A DNA stretch of 64,000 bases from Calditrichia bacterium (lineage in GTDB: Bacteria; Calditrichota; Calditrichia; Calditrichales; Calditrichaceae), in assembly GCA_026983775.1 (NCBI GenBank), contig JALSTK010000117.1:1-64000 (forward strand), read 5' to 3'. Positions 24,037 through 52,954 of this stretch are shown here, one piece after another. The notes beneath the pieces were generated by a model that was given only the letters and a program-made list of their open reading frames with translations, had not been told where the DNA came from and did not search any database. The position numbers were made by a program, and so were the translations under genes. How positions within the stretch are numbered: the stretch's first letter is position 1; every line of letters starts with the position of its first letter.

Positions 24037-24065
24037 TTGACATCAATCCGAATTTTTAATATAAT
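24037..24065 (+). promoter_or_regulatory. Consensus sigma-70 promoter of lexA
   Basis: The -35 box is TTGACA (24037-24042) and the -10 box is TATAAT (24060-24065), with an ideal 17-nt spacer. All twelve consensus bases match. The expected start is near 24072, inside the LexA box. Confidence 0.9.
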
Positions 24066-24066
24066 T

Positions 24067-24084
24067 GGTGTACCTTAGTACATT
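24067..24084 (+). promoter_or_regulatory. LexA operator (SOS box) of lexA
   Basis: GGTGTACCTTAGTACATT contains the palindrome GTAC-N4-GTAC and starts one base after the -10 box, covering the transcription start. The same core at the same distance precedes the DUF6504-dinB unit. The core resembles the cyanobacterial LexA box (RGTAC-N3-DGTWCB). LexA autoregulation is inferred. Confidence 0.75.
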
Positions 24085-24097
24085 AAGCGGAGACAAG

Positions 24098-24712
24098 ATG
24101 AAAAACATTACCAAGCGTCAAAAAGAGATTTTACAGTTGATCGCGAAAAATATTGAAGACAAGGGGTATCCGCCATCTTACCAGGAACTGGCCAATCAAA
24201 TGAATATTAAGTCGAAATTTGCCATTTTGAAACATATCGATGCTCTGGTAGCCAAAGGATATCTGGAGAAGGATTCAGCTGCCCGCGGTCTGCGCATCAT
24301 CGATCCCCAATATGCACCGGCTAATAAAAATGAGGTCAGCGTACCTTTAATCGGCCGGGTGGCTGCCGGATTTCCCATTCTGGCCCAGGAAAACGTGGAA
24401 CGTTACATTCCCATCCCCCGGGCCATGATTAAAGCCGAAGGACGGTATTTTGCTTTAAAAGTACGCGGCGACAGTATGATTAACGCCGGCATCTTCGAAG
24501 ATGATCTGGTTATTGTGAATTCCACCAATATGGCTCGTAACCGGGATATCGTTGTTGCCTTACTCCATGATGAAGTGACCGTCAAACGTTTAATGACCGA
24601 CCGTGGCCAAACATTTCTGAAAGCCGAGAATCCCAATTATGATAATATCTATCCCGAAGGGGAATGGTCTATCCAGGGGAAAGTGGTCGGCCTGGTACGG
24701 GAAATCAATTAA
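24098..24712 (+). CDS. lexA: LexA repressor
   Basis: The 204-residue product is the SOS repressor. Residues 1-65 form the winged-helix DNA-binding domain (start MKNITKRQKEIL, recognition helix near residues 38-50). The self-cleavage site is Ala90-Gly91 in VAAGFP. The catalytic Ser126 is in RGDSM and Lys163 in TVKRL, so RecA-stimulated autoproteolysis should work. I chose ATG 24098 because AGCGGAGA lies just before it; an upstream GTG inside the operator is unlikely. The LexA-like gene starts 17 bp downstream in the same transcript. Confidence 0.95.
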   Translation: MKNITKRQKEILQLIAKNIEDKGYPPSYQELANQMNIKSKFAILKHIDALVAKGYLEKDSAARGLRIIDPQYAPANKNEVSVPLIGRVAAGFPILAQENVERYIPIPRAMIKAEGRYFALKVRGDSMINAGIFEDDLVIVNSTNMARNRDIVVALLHDEVTVKRLMTDRGQTFLKAENPNYDNIYPEGEWSIQGKVVGLVREIN

Positions 24713-24729
24713 TCCCCGGTGTGTCATCT

Positions 24730-25173
24730 ATGAAAAATAAACAGGCGGCAATAAAAGCATCTCCGCATCTCTCGGTTCCCAAAGGGGAATTTTACAATAT
24801 TCCTCTCATCGGTCAGGTGCACGTCGAAAACGAGTGGGGAAGCGGAGGGGATTATTCGCTTGGCGAGTTGATCCGCAACTATAAAAAAAACGATACCCGC
24901 TATCTTACCCTGCGCGCGGCGGACGACGGCCTTTCTGCCGTGGGAATTTTGCAGGGGGATTTCTTAACCGTCGAAATGAACCGTAAACCGCGAAACGGTG
25001 ATATTGCCGCCGTTCGCCTCGGTGAACGGGTTTTCATCCGCAAGACCTATTTTGAACGCGGCCTGATTCGTCTGGAAACGACGGATCCCTCCACGGCTCC
25101 CCTGATTGTAGATGCAAAAACGCCCGGCTTCGAATTATTAGGCAAGGTCCATACGGTTATCCGGGAGCTATAG
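24730..25173 (+). CDS. LexA/UmuD-like S24-fold protein with degenerate active site
   Basis: The 147-residue product lacks the DNA-binding domain but keeps the S24 core. NIPLIGQV (residues 23-30) aligns with LexA VPLIGRV, GILQGDFLTVE with GIFEDDLVIV, and VFIRKT with VTVKRL. The cleavage pair Ala-Gly is replaced by His31-Val32. The catalytic Ser position is Gly67 and the catalytic Lys position is Arg104, with Lys105 next to it. It is therefore unlikely to cut itself. It could be a UmuD-like polymerase partner or a LexA-binding regulator. It follows lexA and is probably SOS-induced with it. Confidence 0.75.
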   Translation: MKNKQAAIKASPHLSVPKGEFYNIPLIGQVHVENEWGSGGDYSLGELIRNYKKNDTRYLTLRAADDGLSAVGILQGDFLTVEMNRKPRNGDIAAVRLGERVFIRKTYFERGLIRLETTDPSTAPLIVDAKTPGFELLGKVHTVIREL

Positions 25174-25277
25174 ACTCTTTCCCTCTTCCCGATTCATAAC
25201 CGTTTCCTAGAATTTTATGCTACTTTCCGGTCTCTACCGCTATCCGCCCCAATCCCGTTTTTTAGTCTGTTTCAGGG

Positions 25278-25306
25278 TTGCATTTCGTCTGTTCCTGTTT
25301 TATATT
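25278..25306 (+). promoter_or_regulatory. Sigma-70 promoter of the DUF6504-dinB unit
   Basis: The -35 box TTGCAT (25278-25283) and the -10 box TATATT (25301-25306) are separated by 17 nt. The spacing and position relative to the LexA box are the same as at lexA. Confidence 0.75.
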
Positions 25307-25307
25307 A

Positions 25308-25325
25308 GGTGTACAAAAGTACTAC
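25308..25325 (+). promoter_or_regulatory. LexA operator (SOS box) of the DUF6504-dinB unit
   Basis: GGTGTACAAAAGTACTAC has the same GGTGTAC-N4-GTAC core as the lexA operator and again starts one base after the -10 box. This indicates SOS control of the polymerase unit. Confidence 0.75.
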
Positions 25326-25346: not shown

Positions 25347-25601
25347 ATGACCTTCGAAGATATTTTCGAACCGATCGAGGTCATTAGTTATTTCAGAGAG
25401 GGACATTTAAAACCGTTGCGTTTCAAATGGAACGGACGCGTCTATAAAATTAAACAGGTAAACGGACACTGGGTGAGTCATCAGGGCTATACCCGTCAGC
25501 ATCACTATTCGGTTATCTCGGACAGTTCCGATTATTTCGAGTTGATGTTCAACAGTGCCGATTTCGACTGGCAGGTGGCGCGGGTCTGTTTGGATGGCTG
25601 A
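25347..25601 (+). CDS. DUF6504-like small protein of the SOS polymerase unit
   Basis: The 84-residue product begins EDIFEPIEVI and has a small beta-rich pattern with PLRFKWNGRVYKIKQV, a Trp-His pair, and an ELMFNSADFDWQVARV end. This resembles DUF6504 proteins, which are often encoded beside Y-family polymerases in other bacteria. Function is unknown. The ribosome binding site is AGGAG, 8 nt before the ATG. dinB starts 51 bp later, and the pair shares the LexA-controlled promoter, so a role in translesion synthesis or its control is likely. Confidence 0.65.
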   Translation: MTFEDIFEPIEVISYFREGHLKPLRFKWNGRVYKIKQVNGHWVSHQGYTRQHHYSVISDSSDYFELMFNSADFDWQVARVCLDG

Positions 25602-25652
25602 TAATTACCGCAATAGATTTTTCTATTGCTGAATTTGGGAAACGGAAGATTC

Positions 25653-26885
25653 ATGGCAGAAGCGAAACCGAAGAGAATATTAATTTTTCACATCGATGCC
25701 GATGCATTCTTTGCTTCGGTAGAACAGGGCTTTAATCCCCGCTTGCGGGGAAAACCCGTAATTGTGGGTGGCAAAGAAGACCAGCGCGGTGTGGTGCATA
25801 CGGCCAGTTACGAAGCGCGGGCCTGCGGGGTGCGCACCGGCATGCCCTTGATGAGAGCTAAAGCGATCTGTCCCCGGGCTATCTTTTTAAAGGGGAACTA
25901 CGAACATTATCGTGCTATTTCGGAGATATTTCAGCAGGTATATATGAAGTACACACCCCAGGTGGAATTCACTTCCCCGGACGACGCCTATCTGGATTTA
26001 AGCGGCGCCCTGCATCTCTATCCTTCGCCTTTGTGGGTGGCCGAAACCATCAAAAAAGAGGTATACGAACGCACGGGTGTAGGGCTTTCGGTAGGCATCG
26101 GCAGCAGCAAAGTTATTGCCCGTATTGCCTCGGATTTAAAAAAACCGGGGGGTACGGTTTATGTTCCGTCCGGAGAGGAGCGGGCCTTTTTAGCGCCCCT
26201 TCCGGTTGATGTCCTGCCCGGTATCGGACGGATGGCCAAAGAGCGGCTGGTGGATTTACGTATTTTTACCGTGGGACAACTGGCGGCTTTGCCGGCCATG
26301 ATTCTGGAACAACTATTCGGCAAAAACGGACGCTCCTTATGGCATTTTGCCAACGGTATCGATCAACGGCCGGTGGAGCGCAAAATCATTCCCGGGCAAA
26401 TCAGTCGCGAAACCAGCTTTGAAGAAGATACATCGGACATGGATTTGGTTAAAGGCACCTTGCAATATTTAACCGAACGGATTGCAAAAAAATTGCGGGA
26501 GCAGGATTTAACGGCCCGTACCGTATCGGTCAAAATCGGGTATTCCGATTTCAAACGACATGCCCGCAGCCGCAGTCTGGACTATCCCACCAACGACGGG
26601 ATTCGGCTTTTCGGCCAGGTAGAGCGTATCTTTGAAGCGATCCGTCTGCGGCGTGTCCGCATCCGCCGGGTAGGGGTCTCGGTTTCCCATCTTGGGGCCG
26701 CCCGCTTTCAGGCCTTGTTGTTTGACGAACAGGATCGCCAGGAAGTGCTTAACACGGCAGTGGATACGCTGCGGGCCCGCTACGGCTTTACCAGCCTGCT
26801 GCCGGCAGATACGCTGGAGCTGAAACGTAAATACCGTATGGACGCGCACGGCTACATCCTGCACAATCCCGCCCTGACCCGATAA
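25653..26885 (+). CDS. dinB: DNA polymerase IV, Y family
   Basis: The 410-residue product is a translesion DNA polymerase. The first metal motif is HIDADAFFASVEQ (Asp15, with Phe19 or Phe20 as the steric gate). The second motif, normally S-x-D-E-A-Y-L-D, reads SPDDAYLD, so the catalytic Glu is Asp111 after Asp110. GIGSSKVIARIAS (palm) and LPGIGRMAKERL (thumb HhH) follow, then the little-finger domain. There is no clear beta-clamp QLxLF tail at the C-terminus. I chose ATG 25653, preceded by CGGAAG; an upstream in-frame TTG at 25626 is less likely. Expression should be SOS-induced. Confidence 0.9.
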   Translation: MAEAKPKRILIFHIDADAFFASVEQGFNPRLRGKPVIVGGKEDQRGVVHTASYEARACGVRTGMPLMRAKAICPRAIFLKGNYEHYRAISEIFQQVYMKYTPQVEFTSPDDAYLDLSGALHLYPSPLWVAETIKKEVYERTGVGLSVGIGSSKVIARIASDLKKPGGTVYVPSGEERAFLAPLPVDVLPGIGRMAKERLVDLRIFTVGQLAALPAMILEQLFGKNGRSLWHFANGIDQRPVERKIIPGQISRETSFEEDTSDMDLVKGTLQYLTERIAKKLREQDLTARTVSVKIGYSDFKRHARSRSLDYPTNDGIRLFGQVERIFEAIRLRRVRIRRVGVSVSHLGAARFQALLFDEQDRQEVLNTAVDTLRARYGFTSLLPADTLELKRKYRMDAHGYILHNPALTR

Positions 26886-39386: not shown

Positions 39387-40748
<1,362 letters not shown>

Positions 40749-51805: not shown

Positions 51806-52954
51806 TTAAAAATCACCTTCTACACCGAGCCCCGGTTTGTCATTAAAAACAAATCTGCCTTTGTCCACTTTTACACCATGGAAAGGATCATTTTTAATCA
51901 GCAAATTGCCGTCCAGATCGGCCCAGTCCACAAAAGGGGTCAGATGAGCCGCAGCAGAAATAGCCACCGAGCTCTCGATCATACAACCCAACATGATTTT
52001 CATACCCAAAGATTTGGCCATGCCGATCATGCGTACCGCTTCCTGAATGCCGCCCGATTTCATTAATTTGATATTGATCCCATCGTAAGCTTTGGCCAGC
52101 TTGGGAATATCTGCCGCCGTTTTCACGGCTTCATCGGCTACGATGGGGATACCGGCTCTTTCCCGCACCCAGGCGGTTTCTTCGATCATATCGGAAGGCA
52201 TGGGTTGTTCGATGAACTCCACTCCCTGCGATTTCAACCATAAGATACGTTCCAGGGCTTCCTCTTTGGTCTTCCAACCTTCATTGGCATCTACCCGGAT
52301 CGGTTTATCGGTTACGCTGCGCACGGCACCGATAATTTCTTCATCATTGGGTTTTCCGACTTTTACCTTTAGAAGGGGGTAGGGGGCGGCTTCGCGAACT
52401 TTTTCTTTAATAACTTCCGGTGTATCGATACCGATTGAAAAAGAGGTTAGCGGAGCGTCCGCCGTATTCAAGCCGTAATATTTGTATAACGGTACGTTCA
52501 ACGCTTTTCCTATCCAATCCATCAAAGCGATATCTAAGGCCGCTTTGGCACAACTCTGTTTCAGAATAGCAGAGTCCAGGGCATCCTTAATGTTTACAAA
52601 ATGGAAGAGATTGTTTTCCCTGAGAACCTGTTCGGCATTTTTAATTTTTTGGGTGGTTAATTCCGCGTTTTCGCCGTAGCGTACATTGGGAGCCGCCTCT
52701 CCAAAGCCTACAATACCGTCTCTTTCAATCCGGACAAAGACATTATTTTTGAAATTACTGGAATTCCTGGAAATGGTCCAGGTATGTTCGAGGATAAGTT
52801 TTTTGGTTTTGATATCGATTTTCATTTTTCCGTTACCAATCGTTGATTTAATGAGCGGAGCCGCGGCTCCTGTTCCACTAAGTGCGTTAAAAAAAGAAAA
52901 ACCGAGTACGGTTGTACCCGATAAAGATAAAAACTGCTTTCTGCTTAAATTCAT
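51806..52954 (-). CDS. Dipeptide epimerase (L-Ala-D/L-Glu epimerase-like), exported
   Basis: The 382-residue product is an enolase-superfamily enzyme. The catalytic base Lys is in LLKVKVG, metal ligands are in VDANEGW, EQPM and ADEAV, and the second Lys is in INIKLMKSGG. DWADLDGN supports the dipeptide-epimerase group, which binds the substrate amino group with a DxD pair. The N-terminus SRKQFLSLSG then a hydrophobic stretch looks like a Tat-type signal with only one Arg pair partner (SRK), so export is likely but not certain. It follows the NlpC/P60 gene by 3 bp and fits murein-peptide recycling. Confidence 0.88.
   Translation of the reverse strand: MNLSRKQFLSLSGTTVLGFSFFNALSGTGAAAPLIKSTIGNGKMKIDIKTKKLILEHTWTISRNSSNFKNNVFVRIERDGIVGFGEAAPNVRYGENAELTTQKIKNAEQVLRENNLFHFVNIKDALDSAILKQSCAKAALDIALMDWIGKALNVPLYKYYGLNTADAPLTSFSIGIDTPEVIKEKVREAAPYPLLKVKVGKPNDEEIIGAVRSVTDKPIRVDANEGWKTKEEALERILWLKSQGVEFIEQPMPSDMIEETAWVRERAGIPIVADEAVKTAADIPKLAKAYDGINIKLMKSGGIQEAVRMIGMAKSLGMKIMLGCMIESSVAISAAAHLTPFVDWADLDGNLLIKNDPFHGVKVDKGRFVFNDKPGLGVEGDF

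Follow-up and report, generated by a model that had tools for sequence, protein, structure and literature searches.

Two sites of the form GGTGTAC-N4-GTAC, one at the lexA promoter and one at the promoter of a DUF6504-dinB translesion-synthesis operon, are very probably operators of the LexA protein encoded in the same window (the whole 64,000-nucleotide stretch of DNA that was analysed), and a LexA dimer bound to them would keep both operons blocked until DNA is damaged. The original prediction had proposed this role, which is now backed by conservation of the box at lexA, its enrichment over control patterns, the SOS-type genes that carry it and the covariation of its arms with the LexA recognition helix. 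From the computed sites, their conservation and enrichment, the gene content and the helix covariation we infer protein binding, repression and RecA-triggered release. Literature searches for LexA in Calditrichota, or for an SOS response in Caldithrix, returned nothing relevant. The element itself appears ordinary in kind, being a LexA operator; we found no description of an SOS motif for the phylum, and the predicted regulon is unusual. It provides a concrete, testable SOS motif for Calditrichota.

The lexA promoter matches the sigma-70 consensus (TTGACA-17-TATAAT) perfectly, and a single T separates its -10 box from GGTGTACCTTAGTAC. At the DUF6504-dinB promoter (TTGCAT-17-TATATT) a single A precedes GGTGTACAAAAGTAC, and the spacing from the -10 box to the site is identical at the two promoters. 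Both promoters and both placements had been described beforehand and are confirmed at the coordinates in Table 1. Transcription is expected to start about seven bases downstream of a -10 box. Since this position falls within both sites, a bound dimer would block initiation. The lexA product has all the canonical features of LexA: an HTH, an Ala-Gly cleavage site (VAAGFP) and a Ser-Lys dyad (GDSM, VTVKR). The GTAC-N4-GTAC core occurs four times in the window, against 0.17 copies expected from shuffles; the remaining two copies lie in coding sequence and are probably there by chance.

In the mechanism that we propose, a LexA dimer would occupy GGTGTAC-N4-GTAC just past the -10 box, cover the transcription start, and block two operons: its own, in which lexA is followed by a dead S24 paralogue, and that of DUF6504-dinB. 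On DNA damage, RecA would load on single strands, LexA would cleave itself at the Ala-Gly bond and the operons would open. Two further genes of this genome, for a second, DnaE2-like polymerase and for an integron integrase, are predicted targets of the same LexA.

Table 1. Coordinates of the features discussed; locations given as bare numbers are window positions.
Feature	Location	Strand	Details
lexA promoter, TTGACA-17-TATAAT	24037..24065	+	TTGACA 24037-24042; TATAAT 24060-24065; 12/12 consensus matches
Predicted LexA operator at lexA, GGTGTACCTTAGTAC	24067..24081	+	GGTGTAC-CTTA-GTAC, reaching ATT 24084
lexA	24098..24712	+	ATG 24098; TIGR00498 206.3 bits, cut-off 111
HTH-less LexA-like S24 paralogue	24730..25173	+	PF00717 40.9 bits
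DUF6504-dinB promoter, TTGCAT-17-TATATT	25278..25306	+	TTGCAT 25278-25283; TATATT 25301-25306; from sequence
Predicted LexA operator at DUF6504-dinB, GGTGTACAAAAGTAC	25308..25322	+	GGTGTAC-AAAA-GTAC
DUF6504 protein, gene 1 of translesion-synthesis operon	25347..25601	+	ATG 25347; PF20114 25.6 bits, cut-off 24.2
dinB, DNA polymerase IV	25650..26885	+	NCBIfam DNA polymerase IV models, up to 324 bits
Remaining GTAC-N4-GTAC cores	40348-40359; 52906-52917		
Integron integrase	G000:C56:262-1299 (L209:262-1299)		TIGR02249 474.7 bits, cut-off 265
parE candidate box, ATTGTACATTAGTACTAT	G000:C168:2070-2082 (L211)		score 8.8
One-mismatch box in CRISPR-like spacer	G000:C2:23690-23704 (L033)		
FEERAAI-motif proteins	L133:335-541; L152:1296-1484; L153:1268-1480; L154:1553-1753; L192:1279-1467		63-71 aa
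Small conserved membrane protein	L203:1667-2023; L146		

The source genome is a 4.03-Mb metagenome-assembled genome (MAG) in 179 contigs (G000), and the list of its regulon members may therefore be incomplete. Within it GGTGTAC-N4-GTAC occurs three times, versus no match for the reversed control pattern, and all three sites are promoter-proximal: at lexA, at DUF6504-dinB and at the integron integrase gene. When one or two mismatches were allowed, nearly all matches fell in coding sequence, the exception being the promoter of the DnaE2-like polymerase gene, which at one mismatch was the sole additional promoter-like site next to a convincing gene. The looser pattern KGTACN4GTAC was rejected, since it gave as many control as real matches in this genome and specificity was obtained only with GGTGTAC-N4-GTAC. 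One single-mismatch box lies between copies of a CRISPR-like repeat, GTCTCAATCCCCTCTGAATAACGGGGTATTCC, that is, in a spacer, and is probably a chance match.

The phylum was sampled with 40 Calditrichota genomes from six families, labelled f1 (the family of the window) to f6; the closest LexA sequences come from Calditrichaceae, Calditrichia and Caldithrix MAGs. In 30 genomes the pattern was found at 54 sites, versus nine matches to the reversed pattern. About 40 of the 54, with classes assigned by reading of the match table, lie in promoters: those of lexA (7), DUF6504-dinB (about 10), small proteins with a FEERAAI motif (5), intI (4), IS91 transposases (4), dnaE2-like genes (3), addB-like genes (3), a membrane protein (2), umuD (1) and YjbR-parE (1). 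Eight are intragenic, which is about the control (chance) level, and these include all four matches in G023, a genome of f3, whose lexA box carries other arms. The genome scan that the original prediction had called for thus found the sites clustered at SOS-type genes rather than at random, and the proposed lineage motif is well supported by this enrichment and by the lexA promoters of the phylum.

A related box is present in every evaluable Calditrichota lexA promoter, in all six families. It reads GTGTAC-N4-GTACAT in f1, with GTGCAT, GTTCAG and GTGCAC variants, GTGTAC-N4-GTATAT in f2, GTGTAC-N4-GTACAC in f4, mostly GTGAAC-N4-GTATAC in f3 and f5, and GTGAAC-N4-GTTCAC in f6. The fuller motif is GTGNAC-N4-GTNCAC, running within the phylum to the f6 form. 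The recognition helix of LexA reads SK[FY]A[IV][LM]KHI in f1 and f2, SKN[AG][IV]KKHI in f4, and SK[QH]GVVRHL in f3, f5 and f6, such that SK[FY]A[IV][LM]KH pairs with GTGTAC arms and SK[QH]GVVRH with GTGAAC arms. The helix positions that vary include DNA-contacting positions of E. coli LexA, which are 39, 41, 42, 44 and 45 (PMC3091678). Of the computational evidence, this covariation argues most strongly that the box is read by LexA itself. For the phylum as a whole the predicted operator type is GTGNAC-N4-GTNYAY, its arms having changed together with the recognition helix.

Promoters of candidate regulon members were scored over 150-250 bp upstream regions with a matrix trained solely on the lexA and DUF6504 sites, and significance was assessed with mononucleotide shuffles. 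Orthologous DUF6504-dinB promoters carry the box in about nine further genomes. At p≤0.01 the matrix found it in 12 of 14 dnaE2-like promoters from f1 (7/9) and f2 (5/5), in none of the seven dnaE2-like promoters of f3, f5 and f6, and in none of six control promoters of the replicative dnaE1. The source genome encodes a second, shorter DnaE (C73) alongside its replicative DnaE1; because this protein scores 752 bits against the error-prone model NF004225, below the cut-off of 939, we refer to it as DnaE2-like. Its box, GGTGTACGTTCGTAA, lies 40 bp upstream of the ATG, and its score was reached by no shuffle despite a mismatch in one arm (GTAA).

The original prediction had called for a test of whether recA, uvrA and other repair genes carry the box. 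It is present at dinB and the dnaE2-like gene, and absent from recA and uvrA of the source genome, which have it in other families. The only GTAC-like site at its recA scores -0.9, the best score in that promoter has p=0.25, and recA was rejected as a member of this regulon; uvrA was likewise rejected in f1, f2 and f4, where no box was found. Elsewhere recA has a box in 6/6 genomes of f2, in 3/3 of f5 (p 0.003 to 0.06, one borderline) and in 1/11 of f1 (p 0.017). Membership of uvrA in the f5 regulon is likely, with a box in three of four genomes (p 0.005 to 0.055, one borderline). The lack of a box at recA and uvrA of the source genome suggests that the f1 regulon is biased towards translesion synthesis and recombination, and by the same promoter scans f5 appears to retain a more classical regulon than f1. 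Published LexA regulons of some cyanobacteria also lack recA (PMC3091678).

The position of the site right past the -10 box, which is common to many of the sites, would also be expected if it were an extended part of the core promoter, and several other S24 repressors use palindromic boxes (PMC8565304), so that the protein bound there might be another dimeric repressor, either one resembling phage CI or a further S24 regulator. We consider either version very improbable: the box is found at lexA in every family and accompanies translesion-synthesis genes, whereas dnaE1 and uvrA of those families lack it; its distance from the start varies, lying between -35 and -10 at intI of G007; and its arms covary with the recognition helix of LexA. 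The chance that the box has no regulatory role, being shared at lexA and dinB through close relatedness or coincidence, seems close to negligible. Near genera do share promoter sequence around lexA, and a few exact matches elsewhere are intragenic, as chance predicts; yet the excess over the reversed pattern, the occurrence at unrelated genes with unrelated flanks in six families, and the retention of the palindrome through changes of its arms all count against this reading, and the clustering at SOS-type genes refutes it.

The integron integrase gene of the source genome carries an exact predicted LexA box 42 bp upstream of its ATG, on a contig that ends 303 bp upstream of the gene. Across the phylum the matrix found a box in 6 of 18 intI promoters (p≤0.01 by shuffling), past the -10 box in G000 and G016, between -35 and -10 in G007 and at -129 in G006. 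Repeats separating single-ORF cassettes adjoin the boxed integrase of G016 and the integrase of G025, which carries a variant palindrome, GTATAC-N4-GTATAC; this repeat search performed better than a crude hairpin finder, which recovered few attC sites. G016 also holds copies of an IS91-family transposase gene (L214, L215, L217), each with GGTGTACATAAGTAC overlapping a putative -10 box and some divergent from integron integrases. For the integrases alone, the box could have arrived with the mobile integron or IS91 element instead of being acquired and retained so that the host LexA could control the gene. This is rather unlikely, though intI of G016 adjoins IS91 transposase genes, both are boxed, and the IS91 copies repeat an identical box; the differing box positions among genomes and the 12 intI promoters that lack one fit repeated gain or loss.

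Going beyond the original prediction, these sites appear to place LexA boxes of the native type at integron integrase genes beyond the Proteobacteria, in several genera. A 2011 survey by Cambray et al. discusses the absence at intI of any motif except the beta/gamma-proteobacterial one (PMC3108266), and host-type boxes would thus occur on integrases for which LexA control had been noted as absent beyond Proteobacteria. A 2026 paper describes ISCR transposases, which are related to IS91, as being under SOS control in E. coli (PMC13393415). By analogy, the Calditrichota intI and IS91 sites would embody the same idea as SOS-controlled intI and ISCR with a different, native motif. They resemble the SOS-controlled integrases of Vibrio and class 1 integrons in having a LexA box at the intI promoter, a TIGR02249 integrase and, in relatives, cassette arrays, and differ in that the box is the native phylum motif.

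The S24 paralogue, which probably shares an operon with lexA, has Gly and Arg in place of the catalytic Ser and Lys and no Ala-Gly site. We found it in 30 Calditrichota genomes, directly 3' of lexA in at least 25; Arg replaces the catalytic Lys in 30/30, only one member keeps the Ser, the dyad is broken in 30/30 and Ala-Gly is absent. In the lexA neighbourhoods of other phyla that were examined, LexA itself was the only S24 protein. A structure model (mean pLDDT 71) best matches LexA C-domains and then UmuD'. Like UmuD/UmuD', the paralogue has an S24 fold without an HTH and lies beside a Y-family polymerase operon; unlike them, it has a broken dyad and no cleavage site and is placed behind lexA rather than with umuC. 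The substitutions and the missing cleavage site led us to reject it as an autoproteolytic UmuD. This phylum-wide, HTH-less, dead S24 paralogue behind lexA was not named in the original prediction and exceeds its claim; it is a conserved part of a predicted SOS operon. It may associate with LexA, with the RecA filament, or with DinB and the DnaE2-like polymerase. We offer more tentatively, as a possibility falling somewhat short of an even chance, the joint reading that integron integrases (and IS91 transposases in one genome) repeatedly gained native LexA operators and that the dead paralogue is co-produced with LexA and adjusts the switch. It would do so either by slowing LexA cleavage, through heterodimer formation or competition for the RecA filament, or by partnering the adjacent DinB and the DnaE2-like polymerase in the manner of UmuD'.

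Among known LexA boxes, the Calditrichota box is closest to those at lexA of Ignavibacteria and Melioribacter (GTGNNC-N4-GNNCAC), which have the same outer GTG...CAC, N4 spacing and placement around the lexA -10 box. In Ignavibacteria the box stands on one or both sides of the -10 box, more often on both, and its inner positions vary, whereas the Calditrichota families near the window fix GTGTAC and have one box. The Gram-positive LexA box is of the GAAC-N4-GTTC type. It has the same N4 spacing, and the arms of f3, f5 and f6 (GTGAAC-N4-GTATAC or GTTCAC) come close to it, whereas in the family of the window the arms are GTAC and the 5' GG is conserved. The cyanobacterial box, as quoted from Mazon 2004 in PMC3091678, is RGTACNNNDGTWCB. 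It shares the core GTAC-N4-GTAC and the spacing, and in the quoted form its 5' arm is preceded by A or G and the outer GTG is missing; both window sites read TGTAC on the 5' arm and do not match this full consensus, and other Calditrichota families use GAAC/GTTC arms. The suggested cyanobacterial likeness, set against the consensus as quoted, stands for the core and falls as a special kinship, the Ignavibacteria boxes being closer and the arms varying within the phylum. One phylum thus spans GTAC to GAAC/GTTC arms, the cyanobacterial and Gram-positive box types, in step with the recognition helix.

Exact boxes also precede several further genes. Five small proteins sharing the motif FEERAAIxEFDAG are encoded downstream of such boxes (two of the five were searched against Pfam, with no match), and a small conserved membrane protein, also with no Pfam match, has an exact box in two f4 genomes. 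Genes for addB-like helicase-nucleases carry exact boxes in three f1 genomes (L151, L188, L189). In the source genome a candidate box, ATTGTACATTAGTACTAT, lies between YjbR and parE, and G006 has an exact box upstream of YjbR-parE (L190); SOS control of topoisomerase IV through these boxes is possible.
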